Part shown: piece by piece, positions 34,354 through 45,279 of the stretch | Position numbering within the stretch: position 1 is the stretch's first letter | Layout: the number at the start of each line of letters is the position of its first letter | Origin: an uncultured bacterium | Lineage (GTDB): Bacteria > Cyanobacteriota > Vampirovibrionia > Gastranaerophilales > Gastranaerophilaceae | NCBI GenBank assembly: GCA_902779645.1 | Contig: CACZCH010000007.1 | Location: 124,001 to 188,000 of the forward strand | Direction of reading: 5' to 3' | Length of the DNA stretch: 64,000 nt | Program-made: the position numbers and the translations under genes | The notes under the pieces: generated by a model | Told to the model about the DNA's origin: nothing | Database searches by the model: none | What the model saw: only the letters and a program-made list of their open reading frames with translations

Positions 34354-34541
34354 AAATGCGGTTCGATTGTAATTTAACATACAGAACAAGATGTAATTAA
34401 CTATGAGATGGAGATTACAGGATTTTTAACAATTAATAAATATTTAATAGTTCAAAACAACTTTGGTTTTTTATATTATAAAAATTTTTCTTCATTTTAT
34501 GATATAATAACTCTACTAAATATAAGTATTTTGGGGTGTTT

Positions 34542-35549
34542 ATGGCAAATACAGTTTCTAAAATTTATGGTGATATAGCAGAGTTACTTAATGTTGCTCG
34601 AGCTAAAGCTTATCATGCTGTAAATTCAATTATGGTCGAAACCTATTGGAAAATTGGACAACGTATTGTTGAAGAAGAACAAGGCGGCAGTTCTAGGGCA
34701 GAATATGGAACAAAACTTATTGAAAATTTGTCAAAATACTTAACTGATACATTTGGCAAAGGCTTTTCTGAAGCCAATTTAAAGAATATGCGCCAATTTT
34801 ACCTCACTTATCCTGAATTCGATACGCAGTGCGTAGCGAATTTATCTTGGACAAATATCCGTACAATTATAAGGATAAGCGACAAGAATGAACGAGACTA
34901 TTACTTAAAAGAATCTGCTGCTGAAAATTGGACTTCAAGACAATTGGAACGTAATATAAAAAGTGGTTATTATCATAGGCTTTTATCAACACAAGAAAAA
35001 TCAAACGATGCAGAAAGATGTTTGCCGGCTGTGGTTGATACAAAAGAATTTATTAAAGATCCGTATGTTTTAGAATTTCTTGATTTACCGGAAAATATTG
35101 AAGGCAAAGAAAGTGCATTAGAATCAGCGTTAATCAACAATTTACAAAAATTCTTGCTTGAGCTAGGCAAAGGTTTTTCTTTTGTTGCACGCCAATTTAG
35201 AATTAGTACAGAAACAGACCATTTTTATGCTGATTTGGTGTTTTACAACTACCTGCTCAAATGCTTTGTGGTTATTGATTTAAAAACTACAAAATTATCC
35301 CACGCAGAAATCGGTCAGATGGATATGTATGTCAGAATGTTTGATGAATTAAAGCGTGGTGCAGATGACAATCCGACAATTGGTATCATATTATGTACCG
35401 ATAAATCTGAAACTATGGTTAAATATTCGATCCTTCAGGAAAGCCAACAAATTTTTGCAAGTAAATATAAAACTGTTCTTCCGACAGAAGAAGAACTTGC
35501 TGATATGATTCAAAAAGAAAATACCCTGCTTTTAGCATCAGAAGAATAA
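34542..35549 (+). CDS. DUF1016 (YhcG-type) PD-(D/E)XK nuclease-fold protein
   Basis: 335-residue DUF1016/YhcG protein. The N-terminal domain has ARAKAYHAVNSIMVETYWKI, GFSEANLKNMRQFYLTYPEF and LSWTNIRTIIRISD. The C-terminal nuclease fold shows FVARQFRI, ADLVFYNYLLKCFVVIDLKT and GQMDMYVRMFDE. The Asp and Lys of the active site are present, with Asp in place of Glu in the E-x-K position. ATG at 34542 (GGGG upstream) is preferred over GTG at 34536. Relatives occur beside type I restriction genes, in mobile elements and with toxin-antitoxin-like roles; here it is alone with its own terminator. Confidence 0.88.
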   Translation: MANTVSKIYGDIAELLNVARAKAYHAVNSIMVETYWKIGQRIVEEEQGGSSRAEYGTKLIENLSKYLTDTFGKGFSEANLKNMRQFYLTYPEFDTQCVANLSWTNIRTIIRISDKNERDYYLKESAAENWTSRQLERNIKSGYYHRLLSTQEKSNDAERCLPAVVDTKEFIKDPYVLEFLDLPENIEGKESALESALINNLQKFLLELGKGFSFVARQFRISTETDHFYADLVFYNYLLKCFVVIDLKTTKLSHAEIGQMDMYVRMFDELKRGADDNPTIGIILCTDKSETMVKYSILQESQQIFASKYKTVLPTEEELADMIQKENTLLLASEE

Positions 35550-35940: not shown

Positions 35941-36254
35941 ACTGACACATGAAACTTTAGATATTCCGTATTCTGAATTTAGGAAAAAATTTGCAAAAGA
36001 AATTCAGCGGATTTTCGGTAGGGCGCCGTGTGAGCGTAAGCGAACCCAGCCCGTAAGGTGTCGGTCGGACGTTACTCTGCCGGCACCCCGAATAATCCAA
36101 GACGGATGCCTTTGAAAGCTATCGCAAGACACAGTTAAATAAATATTCTTGGAACTTCAAAGATGACAACTCTTTGGAGTTTAATTTTTATTTTGAACTT
36201 CATTGGAACTTTAACCATTTTGGAAACTCAAACTGGTTTATAGAAAAAATGTAG
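35924..36254 (+). pseudogene. Small gene disrupted by an 88-bp GC-rich insertion
   Basis: The 5' part reads MILKNKLTHETLDIPYSEFR and continues KKFAKEIQRIF to 36016. The 3' part, in another frame from 36105, reads DAFESYRKTQLNKYSWNFKD, then NSLEFNFYFELHWNFNHFG and ends at TAG 36252-36254. Between them lie 88 GC-rich bases unlike the AT-rich flanks; 88 is not divisible by 3, so the frame is broken. The intact ancestor would have been about 80 residues. Function unknown. Confidence 0.75.
36017..36104. mobile_element. GC-rich mini-insertion of about 88 bp
   Basis: About 65% G+C by eye within roughly 30% G+C flanks. It contains GGCGCC, GGTGTCGG that can pair with CCGGCACC, and AGCGTAAGCG. The GC-rich patch at 51310-51445 shares CGACACC and CTCAC motifs. 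Too short for a gene; it is best explained as a MITE/REP-like insertion. Confidence 0.6.
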
Positions 36255-36322: not shown

Positions 36323-36353
36323 AACAGGAAAAATTTTAATATATTTTCCTGTT
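36323..36353. repeat. Palindrome upstream of the recombinase gene
   Basis: AACAGGAAAA and TTTTCCTGTT (10-bp perfect arms) around an 11-base AT spacer, ending 22 bases before the recombinase ATG. Arm length and spacing resemble a tyrosine-recombinase core site, or it may be an operator. Confidence 0.6.
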
Positions 36354-36375
36354 ACAATAAGAAAGGAGAATTAAG

Positions 36376-36914
36376 ATGGCAACAGTAGAACCGATTAGAG
36401 ACATTAATGACTTAAAAAAGTTGAGAATGTCTTATCTAAAAATGAAAGAGATTTATTATTTTTCACCGTAGGCACAAATTGCGGATTAAGAATCTCTGAT
36501 ATTCTATCCTTAAATGTAGGTGATGTTCGCGGGAAATCACACATTCAGTTGATAGAGAAAAAGACAGGAAAGTTTAAAAGATTCCCAATTAATACAAAAT
36601 TAAAACCTATGTTTGAGGAGTTTACCAAAGGGAAAAAAGCCGATGAACCTTTATTTAAAACGATTTTCAAGCACCGACTTGAAAGAGTTGCAGCATACTA
36701 TATTATTAAAAATGCATGCGAAGAAGCAGGAATAGAAGAAAAGGCTGGGACTCATACTGTGCGAAAAACATTCGGGTATCACCATTATCAAAGATTTAAG
36801 GATGTGGCAATGCTTCAAAAAATGTTTAATCATTCAAGTCCGCAAATTACATTGAGATATATAGGAATAGAGCAAAACCAAATAGAAGAGAGCTATTCAA
36901 ACTTTATATTATAG
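36376..36914 (+). CDS. Tyrosine recombinase, two frames joined by a possible -1 ribosomal frameshift
   Basis: The ATG at 36376 (AAAGGAG upstream) opens MATVEPIRDINDLKK but this frame stops at 36471. A -1 shift at A-AAA-AAG (36414-36420), the classical slippery heptamer, continues as VENVLSKNERDLLFFTVGTN and runs to 36914. The joined product of about 180 residues is a catalytic-domain-only phage-type integrase: CGLRISDIL (Arg), GTHTVRKTFGYHHYQ (H-x-x-R), FNHSSPQ (His) and LRYIGI (Tyr). If no frameshift occurs, it is a pseudogene caused by one base in the A run. The domain lacks an arm-binding region, like integron-type or Xer-like small recombinases. Confidence 0.8.
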
Positions 36915-37096
36915 CAAAACACTTACTATCAAAGGAGAACATTACATTTTATTTCTTATAACACTTTATGCATAATGTAATGAGACCTCTCCGTAATCCT
37001 ATTTTAGCATAAAAATTTTTTTATTTTAACATCTTAGTTAAATTAAGTTAAGCAAATTTATTAAAAAAATCGGCTTTTTAAAAATAATTATTCAAA

Positions 37097-37130
37097 ATCT
37101 CTTTATATTTTATACAAAAAGTAAAGAGAT
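37097..37130 (-). repeat. Inverted site, left copy (near-palindrome)
   Basis: Arms ATCTCTTTA and TAAAGAGAT with the asymmetric core TATACAAAAAGT. Its reverse complement matches 37261-37294 at 29 of 34 positions, including 12 uninterrupted core bases. Confidence 0.75.
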
Positions 37131-37260
37131 TTTATAATTTAGACTACGCTTGAGTTTCAGGGAATAAAATTTAAATAAAAATAAAAGAACATTACATTTT
37201 TTAATAAATATCTTTTTGCATAAATGTTTATGTTATTATGTATTTAGGCAAACGAATTTA

Positions 37261-37294
37261 ATCTCTTAACTTTTTGTATATAAAGTTAAGAGAT
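37261..37294 (+). repeat. Inverted site, right copy (near-palindrome)
   Basis: Arms ATCTCTTAACTTT and AAAGTTAAGAGAT with core ACTTTTTGTATA, which is the reverse complement of the left core. Confidence 0.75.
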
Positions 37295-37333
37295 TCAACC
37301 GCAAATCAAGAAAATAGAACTACTTCAGAGATA

Positions 37334-37873
37334 ATGAAAATATTAATGATTAAAGGTTTACCAATAAAAAGCATAAAAGATATAAAAAAAATTAAGAAAA
37401 AGTACAAAGAAAAAGAAATGTATTTAGACCTTTTAATGTTTCTTTTAGTCATTAATACAGGCTTAAAAATGGCAACAATTTTTGAGATGAAAGTTTCTCA
37501 GCTAAAAGGGAAAAAATATATTCCGATAGCAAAGGGAATAACGTTTTTACTAACAAATGAGATGAGAGAATTAATAAATATTGTAACAGCAGACAAGGAA
37601 CCGAATGACTTTGTTTTTGCAAGGAGGATTAAGGACAAAGTATCAAGGTATGGTTATTACTGCAATTTTAAAGATATTTGTGCTGAACTCGGCCTTTATA
37701 ATACATCTATTGATTCTTGGCGAAGGACATTTGGGTATCACTATTTCCAAAAATATAACGATTTATTTTTCTTGCAGTGGTATTTCAACCAGAATACTGC
37801 AGAACAGACAATGGACTTTATAGATGTAAAAGAGCCGATGAGCAGCCGTTTTAAACAAGGATTGGAATTATAG
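37334..37873 (+). CDS. Catalytically degenerate tyrosine-recombinase-like protein heading the polysaccharide operon
   Basis: Paralogue of the recombinase at 36376: IKSIKDIKKI aligns with IRDINDLKK, INTGLKMATIFEM with TNCGLRISDIL, DSWRRTFGYHYFQKYND with GTHTVRKTFGYHHYQRFKD, and WYFNQNTAEQTMDFIDV with MFNHSSPQITLRYIGI. The catalytic Arg is Lys, the HxxR histidine is Ser, the second His is Gln and the Tyr is Phe. It should not cleave DNA but keeps the fold, so it may bind recombination sites or act as a transcription factor (inference). ATG 37334 is chosen; TTG 37274 lies inside the right palindrome. It ends 14 bases before the sugar transferase gene. Confidence 0.75.
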   Translation: MKILMIKGLPIKSIKDIKKIKKKYKEKEMYLDLLMFLLVINTGLKMATIFEMKVSQLKGKKYIPIAKGITFLLTNEMRELINIVTADKEPNDFVFARRIKDKVSRYGYYCNFKDICAELGLYNTSIDSWRRTFGYHYFQKYNDLFFLQWYFNQNTAEQTMDFIDVKEPMSSRFKQGLEL

Positions 37874-37887
37874 GAAGAGAGAAGAGA

Positions 37888-39306
37888 ATGTTTAAAAGTT
37901 TATCAAAATCTACGTGGATAATGTTTTTGTTTGATTTGATAATTTTATCGTTATCAACATATCTTGTTGGTGCGTATTTTGGATTAAGTCAAGTTATTTT
38001 ATTAATAGCAACAGGCTTAGTTGTAGTTGTCGGTTTAGGAACATTGTTTCTCAAAGGGAATTATCGTATAAGAGAGTTCAACCAAACATTCTGGAACTTT
38101 TACCGATTGTTTGAAGGTGCGATTTTTACTCATGTTCCTGTTGGAATTCTTTTATTCTTCCTTGTTGATAAATCAACTTTAATTAAATTTTTAGGGATAA
38201 ATATTCTCATAATTTACCTCGCTCTATGCATTTATAGACTTTGTTTTCACTATTACCTTTTCAATTTTAAGACAGTTAAAAAGATTCTTATTGTGGGGGT
38301 AAATGAGAGAGCGAAAGCACTTGCTGATGAAATTATGAATAAGCCTGCACTCAGAATGGAAATTGTCGGTTTAGTCAGAACTGATGCGATTGAAAGAAAA
38401 ATCTTAGAGATGACAAGAGAAGTTTTTCATCTGACAAAAGAAGAAGAAAGGGCTCTGGAAGCTGAAAACGAACAGGAAGAACTTGTTATGGATGATAAAG
38501 TTCCTGTTTTTGAAGACGGAAGAGATATTTACAATATTGTTAATAAAACAGAAGCAGATATTGTTATCTTTACTTACGCATCACAGCTTATGTCAGCCGT
38601 TCCTAGAGGAGTAAAAGAATACCTGATGCCGCAATTCTATGAGATGGTAACAGGCAAATTCTATATGGATTTTAAAAATGCCGTTGACTTCCGTTGTGAA
38701 TTTTCACGAAAAAATACCTTTTGGTATGACTTTTTGAAACGTACTTTTGATATTATATCGTCTTTAATTATTCTGACTGTTACATTGCCAATAACGGCAT
38801 ATATTGCAATCAGAGTAAAACTAACAGACGGAGCAAGCCCGTTCTTTTCACAAACCCGTGTCGGACAAGACGGAAAAACTTTTGAGTGCTATAAGCTTAG
38901 AACAATGTATGTAAATGACTATGTGCCAAAGAATGCTGAAATGCTTAATGACGGTGCAGACAGAACAATACCATTCTGCAAATGGATACGAAAAGCTAAA
39001 CTAGATGAAATTCCTCAAATGGTAAATATTTTGAAAGGCGAAATGTCTATTATAGGTCCTAGAGCAGAGTGGGAAAAATTCGCAAGCGTATTTGATAAAG
39101 ATGTTCCTTTTTACAGAATGAGAAATTTAATCAGAGCTGGCTGGACAGGCTGGGCGCATATAAATATGAAAGCTGCTTATTCAACTGACGAAGAAAAAGA
39201 ACGTCTTGCTTATGACCTTTACTATATAAAACACAGAAATGTATTTTGGGATATTGCAATTTTAGTAAAAGCAGTTTTCTTAGCTTGCGGAGGTAGACAT
39301 AAATAA
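37888..39306 (+). CDS. Polyprenyl-phosphate sugar-1-phosphate transferase (WcaJ/WbaP type)
   Basis: Initiating enzyme of surface-polysaccharide synthesis: moves a sugar-1-phosphate from a nucleotide sugar to undecaprenyl phosphate. Four or five N-terminal membrane segments, a CoA-binding-like Rossmann region (KILIVGVNERAKALADEI) near residue 130, then the Bac_transf domain from about residue 280: RTFDIISSLIILTVTLPI, FSQTRVGQDGKTFECYKLRT, KAKLDEIPQMVNILKGEMS, IGPRAEWEKF and AGWTGWAHIN. An acidic insertion (EEERALEAENEQEELV) near residue 190 is unusual. It overlaps the next gene by one base. Confidence 0.94.
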   Translation: MFKSLSKSTWIMFLFDLIILSLSTYLVGAYFGLSQVILLIATGLVVVVGLGTLFLKGNYRIREFNQTFWNFYRLFEGAIFTHVPVGILLFFLVDKSTLIKFLGINILIIYLALCIYRLCFHYYLFNFKTVKKILIVGVNERAKALADEIMNKPALRMEIVGLVRTDAIERKILEMTREVFHLTKEEERALEAENEQEELVMDDKVPVFEDGRDIYNIVNKTEADIVIFTYASQLMSAVPRGVKEYLMPQFYEMVTGKFYMDFKNAVDFRCEFSRKNTFWYDFLKRTFDIISSLIILTVTLPITAYIAIRVKLTDGASPFFSQTRVGQDGKTFECYKLRTMYVNDYVPKNAEMLNDGADRTIPFCKWIRKAKLDEIPQMVNILKGEMSIIGPRAEWEKFASVFDKDVPFYRMRNLIRAGWTGWAHINMKAAYSTDEEKERLAYDLYYIKHRNVFWDIAILVKAVFLACGGRHK

Positions 39307-40418
39307 TGGGCAGGAATGAAAATAAAAAAACAAAAGTTACTCACGTTTTCAGATATGCCTATCCTCATATTGGAGGAGTAGAGACTGTAATTAATCAAAT
39401 TAATGACAGTCTACCAAATGAAGAATTTGAAAAAGAAGTTTTATGCTGCTCTAATACAGATAAATCATCTTTTGAAAATGGTGTAAAATATAATCGATGT
39501 AGATATTTATTGGAATTATTCAACGATACAATTTCTCTTGAATTCTTGTGGAAACTATCCCGTGTTAAAACAGATGTTCTGCATTATCATATGCCGTTTA
39601 TATTCGGAATGATTTGTCATTTTATTGCAAGACCAAAATATAAAAAATTATATATAACTTACCATGCTGAACTAGTCGGGTATGACAAAATAATGAAATA
39701 TTTTTGGTGGTTATATAAGTATTTTTATAAAATTGCAGACAGAATTCATGTATTATCACCGAATGTAATTTATAGTGACAAAATACTTACTCCATTTAAA
39801 GACAAATGTTACGTTTTACCATTTGGAATTGATACACAGGTTGAAAAAAAAGTAGAACAGAATAAAATCAAAGAACAATTTAAAGATAAAAAAATACTTC
39901 TTTGCTCCGGAAGGTTGGTGCGTTTTAAAGGATTTCAATACGCAATAGAAGCCCTGAAAAATATTGATAATGTTGTTCTTTTGATTATGGGAGATGGTAA
40001 GTACAGAGAAGTTTTAGAGGAACAAATTAAGCTCAATCAATTGCAGAATAAAGTTTTTTTACTTGGAGAAATCTCAGATAAAAACTATAAAAATGAAGTA
40101 TTTGAAGCTTGTGATATATTTTTGCTCCCATCTATTCAAAGGACAGAGTCTTTTGCAATTGTGCAGTTAGAAGCTATGAGGCATGGCAAACCTATTATTA
40201 ATACAAACCTTGGAACAGGAGTAAATTATGTTTCCGTAGATAAAGAAACTGGTTTGACGGTTGAACCTAAAAACTCAGAAGAATTAACAAATGCAATAAA
40301 CAAACTATTAAATAACGATAATCTTTGTCTTGAATATGGGGAAAATGCAAAAAGAAGAGTAGAAGCATTATTCAATCTAGAAAGTATAAGAGAAAGGTAT
40401 AAGGATTTATATATATGA
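39306..40418 (+). CDS. GT4-type glycosyltransferase 1
   Basis: GT-B glycosyltransferase. The N-terminal acceptor domain begins KVTHVFRYAYPHIGGVETVI (glycine-rich loop). The donor domain has LLCSGRLVRFKGFQYAIEAL, LIMGDGKYREVLEE, and the EX7E-like ESFAIVQLEAMRHGKPII region. It should add one sugar to the lipid-linked repeat unit at the cytoplasmic membrane face. Donor and acceptor are unknown. Stop/start overlap with both neighbours shows tight operon packing. Confidence 0.92.
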   Translation: MGRNENKKTKVTHVFRYAYPHIGGVETVINQINDSLPNEEFEKEVLCCSNTDKSSFENGVKYNRCRYLLELFNDTISLEFLWKLSRVKTDVLHYHMPFIFGMICHFIARPKYKKLYITYHAELVGYDKIMKYFWWLYKYFYKIADRIHVLSPNVIYSDKILTPFKDKCYVLPFGIDTQVEKKVEQNKIKEQFKDKKILLCSGRLVRFKGFQYAIEALKNIDNVVLLIMGDGKYREVLEEQIKLNQLQNKVFLLGEISDKNYKNEVFEACDIFLLPSIQRTESFAIVQLEAMRHGKPIINTNLGTGVNYVSVDKETGLTVEPKNSEELTNAINKLLNNDNLCLEYGENAKRRVEALFNLESIRERYKDLYI

Positions 40419-41476
40419 AATTTGTGATAGAAGAAGCTTGGTGTTCTTGTGAAAAAAAAATAACAGGAATCGCTTTATTTTATAGACTTATGAAAAAAGT
40501 TGCTACAGAAGCAGAAATTGAACCTATTGTTTTTGATAAAAGTTTTCTAGCAAAAATTGACAATACTGTATTACAAAGACTGTTATATTTTATTTGGTTA
40601 AATACTGTATTTTTATTTAAGTTATTAATGCTAAATGATGATGTTGCAGTTATTGGTGTTAAATATTTTATTCCATTTATCAGACTCCCTAGAGTTAAAT
40701 ATTATCCAGTTGTTCATGATTTAATTGCTGTTAAATATCCACATAAAATACCAAAATCATCTGTTATAGTTTTAAGACCAATGATGAGAAATGCCGTAAT
40801 TAACGGAGATAAAATTATAACTGTATCAGAAACAGCAAAAAAGGAAATTGCAGAATATTATAAAATTCCTTTAAGCAGAATTGATGTTATGTATAGTACA
40901 TTTTCTTTTGATACAAAAATTAATCTAAATGAACAAGAAATATTAAATAAATATGAACTTGAAAATAGTAAATTTATTTTGTCTGTCTCATCATTACAAG
41001 GTCATAAAAATATCGATTCTTTAATAAAAGGATTTAATAATTTTAATAAAAAGTACGATGATATAAAACTTGTTATCGTTGGATCTGGAGATAATCTTGA
41101 GGATTATAAAAAACTTGCCTGTAAGAATGTTGTATTTACAGGAAGAATTGATGATGAGATATTGAAAGTTCTTTATCACAATGCATATATTTATTCATTT
41201 CCTTCATATCTTGAGGGATTTGGAGTGCCTATTATTGATGCTCAACAGTTTGGAGTACCTATTTTATGTAGCAATTTAGATGTGTTCAAAGAAGTTGCAG
41301 GAGAGAATGGTGCTATTTTTGTAAATCCAACTCCAGAAAATTTGGAAAAAGGACTAGAAGAGCTATTAAATCAAGAATTAAGAGAAAGACTTATACAATT
41401 TGGATATGAAAATATAAAAAGATTCAATATGGATGCAAAAGTAAGAAAGCTAAAAGAAATTTTGTACGGAGAGTAG
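40415..41476 (+). CDS. GT4-type glycosyltransferase 2
   Basis: 353-residue GT-B enzyme. The donor half shows FILSVSSLQGHKNIDSLIKG, LVIVGSGDNLEDYKKL, NVVFTGRIDDEILKVLYHNA and SYLEGFGVPIIDAQQFGVPI. The GHKN motif is typical of mannosyl-type GT4 enzymes (WbaZ/MtfB-like), so a mannose-family donor is possible but unproved. ATGA overlap with the gene before. Confidence 0.9.
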   Translation: MKFVIEEAWCSCEKKITGIALFYRLMKKVATEAEIEPIVFDKSFLAKIDNTVLQRLLYFIWLNTVFLFKLLMLNDDVAVIGVKYFIPFIRLPRVKYYPVVHDLIAVKYPHKIPKSSVIVLRPMMRNAVINGDKIITVSETAKKEIAEYYKIPLSRIDVMYSTFSFDTKINLNEQEILNKYELENSKFILSVSSLQGHKNIDSLIKGFNNFNKKYDDIKLVIVGSGDNLEDYKKLACKNVVFTGRIDDEILKVLYHNAYIYSFPSYLEGFGVPIIDAQQFGVPILCSNLDVFKEVAGENGAIFVNPTPENLEKGLEELLNQELRERLIQFGYENIKRFNMDAKVRKLKEILYGE

Positions 41477-41477
41477 G

Positions 41478-42710
41478 ATGAAAGTTTTAATAGTTGATCC
41501 TCTATTTACAGCAAATGGAGGCGGTCAATTAATCTCATATAATACATATAAATTATTAAAAGAAAACTCCATAGATGCATATTACTGGGCTATGGATAAA
41601 AAACCATATTTTGAAGAAGATTATGAATATCAAAGTTATTTTACTAAATATTATGGTGGTGGCAAAGATTATATTAAAAATCCCATAAAATATTACTATA
41701 ATAAGCAAGCTCAAAAAGACTTATCTAAATTTCTTAATGTTATAAAACCGGATTTAATTCATATAAATGGTTTATTTGGTATAACCCCTAGCATTCTGAA
41801 AGTCTGTAAACCTGCAAAAATCGTCGTAACACTTCATGGCACAGCAATTGTTTGTCCTGCCGGAACATTGGCAAGAAATAATAAAAATGTTTGTTGTAAT
41901 GAACAATACTGCAGAAATGGAAAATTTTATAATTGTATTTTACATAATTGTACCGGAAATATTGAAGCAAATATTAGGGGAGTTATACGTTCTTACACGT
42001 ACCAAAACAGTATAAAATATGTTGATTATTTTATTACACCTACTGAAAAATTCAAACAAACTGTTTTATTGATGACAGATAAAATTGAACCTTCAAAAAT
42101 AAAAACTATTAATAACTTTTTACCTAAAAGTGAATTAAATAATAAACCTGTTTATACGAATCAAGGGTATTTTCTTTGCGTAGGAAGATTGGTTAAAGAA
42201 AAAGGATTTCAATACATATTAAAAGCTTTTGCAGATTTACCTCGTGACATAAAACTCCATATTGTTGGTAGTGGAAATTATGAAAAATTTTTAAAGAAAT
42301 ATGCGAAAAAAAATAATCTCTATAATGTAACATTTATGGGACAACTTTCAAGAGAGGAGTTAAAAAAAGAATATGAAGGTGCAATCGCTTCTTCTTCTTC
42401 TTCTTCTTTCTATGAGACGTTTGGTTTAACTAATATAGAGGCGTTTTCTCATGGCAAGCCAGTTATTGTATCTAATAGAGGAGGTTTAGCAGAAACCTGC
42501 GAGCATAATGTAAATGGTTTTTTAGTTGAGCCAATGGACACAGAGCAGCTAAAAGAGTGCATTTTAAAATATTGGAACAATCCCAAGCTTGCTATTGAAC
42601 ATGGTGAAAATGGGTATAAAAAAGTAATAAATAAATATTGTGAAGAGAAATACATTAAAGAAATTTTAAATTTATATAACAACGTACTAAAGGGAGCAAA
42701 TAAATTATGA
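41478..42710 (+). CDS. GT4-type glycosyltransferase 3 with Cys-rich insertion
   Basis: 410 residues. Starts KVLIVDPLFTANGGGQLISY (acceptor-side glycine loop) and has ICPAGTLARN-like and CCNEQYCRNGKFYNC plus ILHNCTGN between about residues 125 and 160, a cluster of seven cysteines that could hold a metal or disulfides. Donor motifs: FLCVGRLVKEKGFQYILKAF, LHIVGSGNYEKFL, and SFYETFGLTNIEAFSHGKPV. A TCT run at 42390-42408 codes for six or seven Ser and could be slippage-prone. Confidence 0.9.
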   Translation: MKVLIVDPLFTANGGGQLISYNTYKLLKENSIDAYYWAMDKKPYFEEDYEYQSYFTKYYGGGKDYIKNPIKYYYNKQAQKDLSKFLNVIKPDLIHINGLFGITPSILKVCKPAKIVVTLHGTAIVCPAGTLARNNKNVCCNEQYCRNGKFYNCILHNCTGNIEANIRGVIRSYTYQNSIKYVDYFITPTEKFKQTVLLMTDKIEPSKIKTINNFLPKSELNNKPVYTNQGYFLCVGRLVKEKGFQYILKAFADLPRDIKLHIVGSGNYEKFLKKYAKKNNLYNVTFMGQLSREELKKEYEGAIASSSSSSFYETFGLTNIEAFSHGKPVIVSNRGGLAETCEHNVNGFLVEPMDTEQLKECILKYWNNPKLAIEHGENGYKKVINKYCEEKYIKEILNLYNNVLKGANKL

Positions 42711-44140
42711 AAATAGATTTACAACATCTAATTTATTTACCTATTGCTCTATTTTTTCTACCGGCTTTTTCTTTTTATTTGCCGGGTGCGGATAAAATGT
42801 ATAACATTTTTTTTCTAACAGTATATGTTGCATTAATTTTAATGTTTACTCAAAAAAACAAAAAATTATTTTTTATACTAAGGGCTTGTACAATGAAAAC
42901 GCCATTACTATATTTTATAATTTTTCTTTTGTTTACAAGTGTAACATCTATATTGCTCTCAATATTTGGAGTGGCTGAATTTGATGACGTAACTAAAACA
43001 ATTTTTATAAGATTTGTTTTTGGGATATTCCCTACTATAATATACTTTGTATGCCTTATTGCTGAATACATACAAATTAAAAATTTATTTAAAATAATCA
43101 TTTTTTTATTATGGCTTACATTGATATCAGGAATTATTGCATATATAGGCAGATTGTTTAATATATCAATAATAAATATTATTTTTGATTTCTTAAATAA
43201 TGCAAGAATTATGAATTTAAAAAGGGGCATCGGTACTGTGACGGCGGAATTATACTTTGCTAAAGGGCGTCGTCTAACTGGACTATTCCCTGAACCCGGT
43301 TATTTAGGACAATTTGTATGTATATTTTTGCCTTTTGCATATACATTTGCATCTGCAAAAATTGAAATTTTTAAAAATAAATATCTAGATTATACTATTA
43401 AGAAAAGTTTTATACCACTGGCTTGGATTAATCTAATTCTAACAATGTCACCTATAAGTCTTGTTTTTAGTGTTATTCTGACATGCATTTATTATCACAG
43501 ACAAATATTAACCATAATAAAAAAATATAATATAGTAATAATTATTACATTTATCTATCTTTGCATATTTATATCTAAAATAGATTTTTCAGATACATAT
43601 ATTGAACGAATTATAAATGTTGTTACAAATATGAAATCATTTGAAGATTTTGCAGAGGTTGAACCTAATTTAGCGACAAGAATAGTTTGTTTTGTAAATG
43701 CATTATGTATTTTTGCAAAATCTCCTATTTTAGGCGTTGGTGTTGGTAATGTTATTAATCGTATTTATAGTCAATATTTGAATTCTCCAATTATATTAAC
43801 ACCGGAAATAATTGTCCGTTCTACTTTTTCCGAAGTTATGTACCTTGAAGGATTTATATATAATCTTTTAGCAGAATCGGGAATTATAGCAACGGGAATA
43901 TTTTTATATTTTTATTATAAACTTCTCGCTCGAATTAGTTATATTAAAGGGTTTATCAAAAAACACACACTAGACTATTATATAGTTCATAGTATTAAAT
44001 ATTCATTAATAGCATGTTTTATAAACTTCTTTTATGAGTTGAGAATGACCTCCCAATATTTTATTTTCATAATAATTATTGCAACAATGTACATTTTTTA
44101 TTTCAGACTTGATAATTTTAAGGAGAAAAGATGTGAATAA
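42707..44140 (+). CDS. O-antigen polymerase/ligase-like membrane protein (Wzy)
   Basis: 477 residues with about ten to twelve transmembrane helices and one larger periplasmic part with GRRLTGLFPEPGYLGQFVCI near residues 185-204, the conserved Arg/Glu-Pro-containing loop of Wzy/WaaL proteins. A second loop has SPILGVGVGNVINRIYSQY and then EVMYLEGFIYNLLAESG. It would polymerise repeat units or ligate the glycan; in this cluster (with a Wzz-like protein and flippase) a polymerase is more likely. Overlaps both neighbours. Confidence 0.85.
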   Translation: MKIDLQHLIYLPIALFFLPAFSFYLPGADKMYNIFFLTVYVALILMFTQKNKKLFFILRACTMKTPLLYFIIFLLFTSVTSILLSIFGVAEFDDVTKTIFIRFVFGIFPTIIYFVCLIAEYIQIKNLFKIIIFLLWLTLISGIIAYIGRLFNISIINIIFDFLNNARIMNLKRGIGTVTAELYFAKGRRLTGLFPEPGYLGQFVCIFLPFAYTFASAKIEIFKNKYLDYTIKKSFIPLAWINLILTMSPISLVFSVILTCIYYHRQILTIIKKYNIVIIITFIYLCIFISKIDFSDTYIERIINVVTNMKSFEDFAEVEPNLATRIVCFVNALCIFAKSPILGVGVGNVINRIYSQYLNSPIILTPEIIVRSTFSEVMYLEGFIYNLLAESGIIATGIFLYFYYKLLARISYIKGFIKKHTLDYYIVHSIKYSLIACFINFFYELRMTSQYFIFIIIIATMYIFYFRLDNFKEKRCE

Positions 44141-45279
44141 ATTACTAAAGACTATAAAACGAGAACGTGAATCTAATTTTGAACTATTGAGAATACTTGC
44201 AATGCTGGTAATAATTGCCGGACATTTTTTCAACCAGGCACACATTGTTGAATACATACAACCCTTTAGTTTTAATCAATTCGTATCATTTATATTATGC
44301 AACTTCCATCGTATAGCTGTTAATTTATTCCTGATGGTCGGTTGTTGGTTTATGGTAGATAGCAGATTTGAAGCAAAAAGAGTTTTAAGGTTATATTCAA
44401 AATTATTCTTTTATACTTTTACCTTGCTTATATTTTTACTAACTGTTCATGCTCCTATAAAACCGTTAGAAATTATAAAAAATATATTTCCCTTCTGTGG
44501 CTGTGCATTGTGGTTTGTATCCTGTTATATATGCTTGTTATTAATTTTTCCATTTCTTAAACTGATAACAGAACAAACGCAGAAAGTACATTTAAATTGT
44601 ATTATAATCCTTACAAGTATTTTATCTGGTTTTTCATTAATTTATTTCTATTGGTTTTTAAAAAATGATACATTTTATGCCAATATTCTTTGGTTCTGTT
44701 ATATTTTTATTCTAATATCTTATCTAAAAAAATATATCTTTAATAAAATTAATTTGAATAAATACTTTGTTCTTTTTTTATCTCTTGGATTCTTTACAAG
44801 CTTTATTCTATTAAAACTCTTTTCATATAATTTAATGACATTAAATCTTATTTGGAAAATTTTATATAATTTCTCGTATGCAGCAATTAATGATATTAAG
44901 ATGATATTCAATTTGATACCAGCACTGGGAATATTTTACTTTTTCACAAAATTAGATATTAAGAGCAATAAGGTTATAAATTATCTGGCAAGTTCAACTC
45001 TTGCCGTATACATAATCCACCAAACTCCCGGATTTTATAATTATTTATGGTTTCAAATATTTAAAGTCAACGCCATAATTGCAAATATGTCAAACACTGA
45101 TGTTTGCGGTGGGGCAGCCTTTGTTAGTGGTAATTGTAACGACTTTAACCTTTGGCGGATGTACATTGATTGACAAGTTACAAACAAAATTTATAGAACC
45201 ACATATTGTCAGATTAGGAATATACAAATACATAGAAAATTTACTAAACAATTTCTACAGGAGTTGTACTAAATTATGA
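44133..45279 (+). pseudogene. Acyltransferase-3 family protein, frameshifted near the C-terminus
   Basis: Membrane O-acyltransferase family that decorates polysaccharides. GTG at 44133 (AGGAG upstream) gives VNKLLKTIKRERESNFELLR then ILAMLVIIAGHFFNQ with the catalytic-type His. About ten membrane segments follow. The frame ends at 45173 with a run not typical of the family (CGGAAFVSGNCNDF). A +1 shift near 45100-45112 restores FAVGQPLLVVIVTTLTFGG and LIDKLQTKFIEP, the normal last helix and basic tail, ending at 45279. Likely a single-base insertion; could be an assembly error or phase-off state. The GTG is also inside the last codons of the Wzy gene. Confidence 0.8.

Follow-up and report, generated by a model that had tools for sequence, protein, structure and literature searches.

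A putative invertible promoter segment beside a small tyrosine recombinase gene, ahead of a polysaccharide operon in Gastranaerophilales

In the genome of an uncultured member of the Gastranaerophilaceae, two inverted near-palindromes separate the gene of a small tyrosine recombinase, rec1, from a polysaccharide operon, and the question raised by this locus is whether the 128 bp between them constitute a promoter segment that can be turned around by the recombinase. The Gastranaerophilales are uncultured or barely studied, non-photosynthetic relatives of cyanobacteria from gut and rumen; no report of phase variation in this group was found in a literature search, for which most subscription papers were outside reach. 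The genome (designated G000) comprises 2.06 Mb on 40 contigs, and those of its close relatives for which named records exist are rumen and gut assemblies, many of them under the name Candidatus Gastranaerophilales. The whole stretch of DNA analysed, 64,000 nucleotides in length, is referred to as the window; the features of the locus are compiled in Table 1.

Table 1. Features of the putative switch and its surroundings, in positions of the window.
Feature	Position	Strand	Remarks
YhcG/DUF1016 PDDEXK nuclease-like gene	34536..35549	+	Pfam PF06250 and PF17761; upstream neighbour of the module
Rec1, small tyrosine recombinase, around 179 aa	36376..36914	+	PF00589; frameshifted here
A AAA AAG heptamer at the rec1 frameshift	36414..36420	+	
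AGAACATTACATTTT, 15-bp motif, fixed copy outside the segment	36936..36950	+	
Left recombination site, 14-8-14 near-palindrome, core TTATACAA	37096..37131	+	Junction of the inversion in relatives
Invertible segment, 128 bp	37132..37259	+	Both orientations among relatives
AGAACATTACATTTT, second copy, within the segment	37186..37200	+	
Extended -10 promoter-like element TTTATGTTATTAT	37227..37239	+	Faces the operon (putative ON orientation)
Right recombination site, inverted relative to the left	37260..37295	-	
Rec2, tyrosine-recombinase fold, catalytic residues lost	37334..37873	+	First gene behind the switch; homologues begin at around 37346
Polyprenyl glycosylphosphotransferase (EPS initiating sugar transferase)	37888..39306	+	TIGR03025, E 5e-80, slightly below the curated cut-off
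Further polysaccharide genes: glycosyltransferases, polymerase-like membrane protein, acyltransferase-like protein	39306..45173	+	

Among the further polysaccharide genes, two glycosyltransferases were assigned by Pfam match, the others by eye from the ORF sequence. The YhcG/DUF1016 gene, which adjoins rec1 also in the relatives G014 and G018 and is found in pieces in G003, is probably situated outside the switch proper. Downstream of it, a G+C-rich stretch of around 92 bp (36009-36102) splits a small ORF, which in G016 runs on without interruption. Part of the stretch is found once more on contig C17 of the same genome (56 bp at 93% identity), and it is possibly a small mobile repeat.

Each of the two sites can be read as a pair of 14-bp arms around an asymmetric 8-bp core, TTATACAA in the left site and, in inverted orientation, ATATACAA in the right one. 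Over their full length, the sites match at 31 of 36 positions in inverted versus 29 of 36 in direct orientation. A sequence-only reading of this DNA had described them as 34-bp elements matching at 29 (inverted) versus 27 (direct) positions, with 12-base cores that are reverse complements of each other, and recomputation gave exactly these values; it put the DNA between the sites, directly before the operon, at 130 bases, versus 128 bp here. The pair is beyond chance: with an inverted-repeat score of 21, it surpasses each of 300 shuffles of the region (at most 17) and each of 140 further 450-nt stretches of the window (at most 13). Of the 8 copies of the 12-base core in the genome (2.06 Mb), these two alone are part of palindromes, and the idea that the repeats are unrelated elements scattered genome-wide is rejected for this reason.

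Concerning the orientation of the segment, G014a agrees with the window, and G016, G018, and G003a carry it reversed. Alignment of the segments of G000 and G016 scores 125.5 in reversed versus 22.5 in direct orientation, with a maximum of 22 for shuffled sequences. Across orientations, the inner arms of the sites exchange places and the outer arms remain fixed, and the point of exchange therefore lies within the shared core TATACAAAAAGT. Both orientations are found in four locus families, i.e., in that of the window and in three with different repeat sequences (G014b versus G003b; G032 versus G046 and G062; G052q versus G035q and G048q). The segments of G032 and G062 are identical at 129 of 129 positions but reversed, and their flanks are 99.7-99.98% identical over around 7.4 kb, such that the two assemblies differ essentially by the flip of this 129-bp segment. 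As far as assembled sequences can tell, this is strong evidence of a recent and precise inversion. Since G032 and G062 are rated as different species in the collection, the stretch that they share may go back to transfer or to a binning error, neither of which could produce the reversal. The evidence for inversion thus consists of comparisons between species and of one near-identical pair of assemblies; there were no reads, and hence none of it comes from within one population.

The palindromes might instead be mere RNA hairpins or terminators around an ordinary promoter, without any inversion: as RNA, each of the two folds well (z -5.4 and -5.9), and one of them fits the terminator pattern on the minus strand. 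This explanation is hardly tenable and is rejected here because relatives carry the intervening DNA the other way round, the junctions falling inside the cores; moreover, one segment is reversed between two otherwise nearly identical assemblies, and the same pattern recurs with unrelated repeat sequences.

In the orientation of the window, an extended -10 element (TTTATGTTATTAT) within the segment points at the operon. An identical or closely similar element is found in many other segments, where it points at the operon or away from it, depending on how the segment is oriented. A generic sigma-70 promoter scan of the region did not reveal an excess of sites. It is likely that the segment carries a promoter, although this is indicated by a consensus match only and RNA data are lacking. 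With both orientations present in relatives, the near-identical pair, and a promoter-like element that turns along with the segment, the proposal of the sequence-only reading that an invertible promoter precedes the polysaccharide operon is supported. At two further loci, L074 (G017) and L075 (G003), an apparent third site and a second promoter-like element were noticed by eye, and more than two promoter states may therefore be possible.

Rec1 consists of the Pfam Phage_integrase catalytic domain alone, and all six catalytic residues (Arg, Lys, His, Arg, His, Tyr) are kept in 54 of 54 Rec1 sequences. Intact homologues exist at 96, 93, and 87% identity, and the gene is intact in G016, G014a, G003, and G017. 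In the window, the reading frame beginning with the ATG at 36376 runs into the wrong frame at TTA AAA AAG (36412-36420), where rec1 of G016 possesses one base (A) more; the small tyrosine recombinase that had been placed upstream of the sites is indeed present, but the frameshift had been omitted. Damage to rec1 is also found in G018 (a frameshift) and in G014b (a deletion). A -1 shift at the heptamer A AAA AAG would restore the conserved sequence DLKKVENVL exactly; that such frameshifting takes place is an inference, and it cannot be told whether the loss of one base is a real inactivation, is bypassed, or is an assembly error.

The similarity of the sites tracks that of Rec1 (r 0.72, 0 of 5000 permutations). 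At loci with both recombinase genes, the correlation with Rec1 amounts to r 0.80, versus r 0.29 with Rec2, the product of the first gene of the operon (1244 of 5000 permutations); Rec2 as the reader of the sites is not supported, because site similarity does not follow it at these loci. Rec1 as the enzyme that reads the sites fits the data, with the reservations that its catalysis is inferred and that the correlation is partly confounded by shared descent. Inversion could also come about passively, by rare homologous recombination or replication errors between the repeats and without a dedicated recombinase, for which a repeat length of only around 36 bp and the broken Rec1 at three loci might be adduced. 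We consider this very improbable, since many of the repeats are themselves dyads around an asymmetric core, which is what tyrosine recombinases require, since the repeats adjoin recombinase genes genus-wide, and since their similarity follows that of Rec1 as described.

The only other close rec1 homologue of the genome (L010, contig C1, 13623-14153; 54% identical) is situated beside a Mu-like transposase gene. No repeat pair was found in the 650 nt downstream of this Mu-like prophage homologue; its recombinase could act in trans. Seven other rec1 loci (L017, L020, L023, L025, L028, L030, and L032) are found no more than a few hundred bases from the end of a contig, a position to be expected where assembly is confounded by the two orientations or by paralogues.

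With rec1 frameshifted in this genome, its copy of the switch may be locked in the ON state or flip rarely. The first of these possibilities, a fossil switch in which the frameshift has locked the operon ON, concerns this copy only and is compatible with inversion by Rec1 elsewhere; we take it seriously but lean slightly against it. It rests on the one-base deletion and on the position of the sole other close homologue next to a gene of a Mu-like transposase; on the other side, the deletion could stem from an error of assembly or be bypassed at the heptamer, and both sites are still well matched.

Rec2 has a confidently predicted structure (mean pLDDT 86.8) that matches XerA, XerH, and Cre. 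Among 42 Rec2 sequences of the family, HisII and the beta-lysine are lost in all 42, ArgI in 39, and HisIII in 38, and Phe replaces the Tyr nucleophile in 25. As the fold is kept and the protein conserved while the catalytic residues are lost, Rec2 is, to judge from these residues, very probably catalytically inactive. The term "dead recombinase" used for it previously is apt as to the loss of catalytic residues, but Rec2 is no remnant: its ORFs are intact, dN/dS ranges from 0.04 to 0.15 where computable, indicating purifying selection, and the sequences form a single clade (42 of 42, support 1.0), by which a decaying pseudogene is ruled out. Rec2 is a conserved part of the switch system; in the window, 14 bp separate its gene from that of the sugar transferase, and the gene heads glycan gene clusters at most other loci examined.

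In the window's family, one copy of the 15-bp motif AGAACATTACATTTT is situated outside and one inside the segment. In G014b and G003b, a different sequence is duplicated at the positions matching this pair, and the rec1-only locus G003a yielded no such motif pair. The motif is a candidate Rec2 site, which remains unproven because a similar type of repeat occurs at G044, where no neighbouring rec2 was seen. Its repetition near the promoter-like element, the position of rec2 at the head of the operon, the loci without rec1, and the failure of the sites to track Rec2 would all suit a protein in which the recombinase fold has been taken over for a role as transcription factor or anti-terminator of the glycan operon. 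Such a role would be compatible with inversion; we incline moderately against it without discarding it, as Rec2 is mostly found beside inverted repeats, as a partner in an inversion system would be.

An inverted-repeat pair is present upstream of 24 of the 32 rec2 loci for which 250 nt or more of the preceding sequence exist and, in other genera of the family, at 6 of 7 further rec2 loci, whereas none of the 140 control stretches of the window reaches an inverted-repeat score of 15. Around a quarter of the rec2 loci are without a detectable repeat pair, and some are without a local rec1. Likewise, many rec1 loci possess an inverted-repeat pair downstream, some of them without rec2; at two rec1 loci lacking rec2 that were examined with Pfam, a Stealth phosphotransferase gene and an epimerase gene, respectively, follow. 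Strong Rec2 matches fall in the window's own taxonomic family. The system recurs across this family of the Gastranaerophilales.

We regard it as highly probable that the locus is a phase-variation switch, in which Rec1 flips a promoter segment ahead of the polysaccharide operon. This explanation is founded on the observed inversion between species with junctions in the cores, on the tracking of Rec1 by the sites, on the turning promoter-like element, and on the conservation of the dead Rec2. Rec1, of which the catalysis is inferred, would, as an enzyme composed of the catalytic domain only, recombine two inverted loxP- or dif-like sites and thereby flip the segment of around 130 bp. In the orientation of the window, the promoter, whose activity is likewise inferred, would drive rec2 and the polysaccharide operon (ON); in the opposite orientation it would point toward rec1 (OFF). 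Rec2 would be made mainly in the ON state, provided that its gene has no other promoter. Its role, too, is inferred: most likely it would modulate the switch, either as an inactive subunit in Rec1 complexes that stabilises the ON state or by regulation of the promoter. Whether Rec2 feeds back on the switch at all appears to us evenly balanced, and the wider idea that the ON state, via the dead paralogue, inhibits or modulates its own switching, i.e., a lineage-wide built-in feedback memory, is put forward with somewhat less than even confidence. In the genome studied, with its frameshifted rec1, the segment may not flip at all, may flip rarely, or may need -1 frameshifting or a trans-acting recombinase to do so.

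With an invertible likely promoter before surface-polysaccharide genes, it is probable that these bacteria alternate between an ON and an OFF state of their surface coat. Flipping of a surface-glycan promoter, for which the evidence is that of sequences, would bear on evasion of phages and of the immune system in the gut. A conserved dead recombinase is an uncommon element at the start of switched operons, and it leads to a directly testable hypothesis of feedback.

Among known systems, the sites can be compared with those of Xer/dif and Cre/loxP, in which two dyad arms surround an asymmetric core of 6-8 bp. The dyad arms, the asymmetric core, and the predicted fold of Rec2 are in common with these systems, whereas the inverted site pair would here serve gene switching and not chromosome or plasmid resolution. 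The fim switch of Escherichia coli (FimB/FimE, fimS) is similar in that small tyrosine recombinase genes lie beside a short invertible promoter of a surface-structure operon. Both Fim recombinases are catalytically active, whereas here the second paralogue is dead and is encoded by the first gene of the switched operon; furthermore, sites and lineage differ, and the operon studied here makes glycans. Rec1 matches the model of FimB-type invertases weakly over its length (E 7.6e-9, 35 bits versus a cut-off of 222), far from the curated threshold for FimB/FimE DNA invertases.

Polysaccharide operons switched by promoter inversion are also known from Mpi of Bacteroides fragilis, which the sequence-only reading had cited as an example of a tyrosine recombinase. 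This was mistaken: Mpi is a serine recombinase and acts on many loci (PMC4747536), and differs in both respects from the system described here. The right analogue is therefore the tyrosine recombinase Tsr19 of B. fragilis, which adjoins and flips the promoter of an extracellular polysaccharide locus (PMC4747536), an arrangement like that of Rec1 and the operon studied here. Despite this similarity, there are differences between the two: a dead paralogue is present here and is not mentioned for Tsr19 in the portion of the source that was available (PMC4747536), the host belongs to another phylum, and the enzyme is small and consists of the catalytic domain only.
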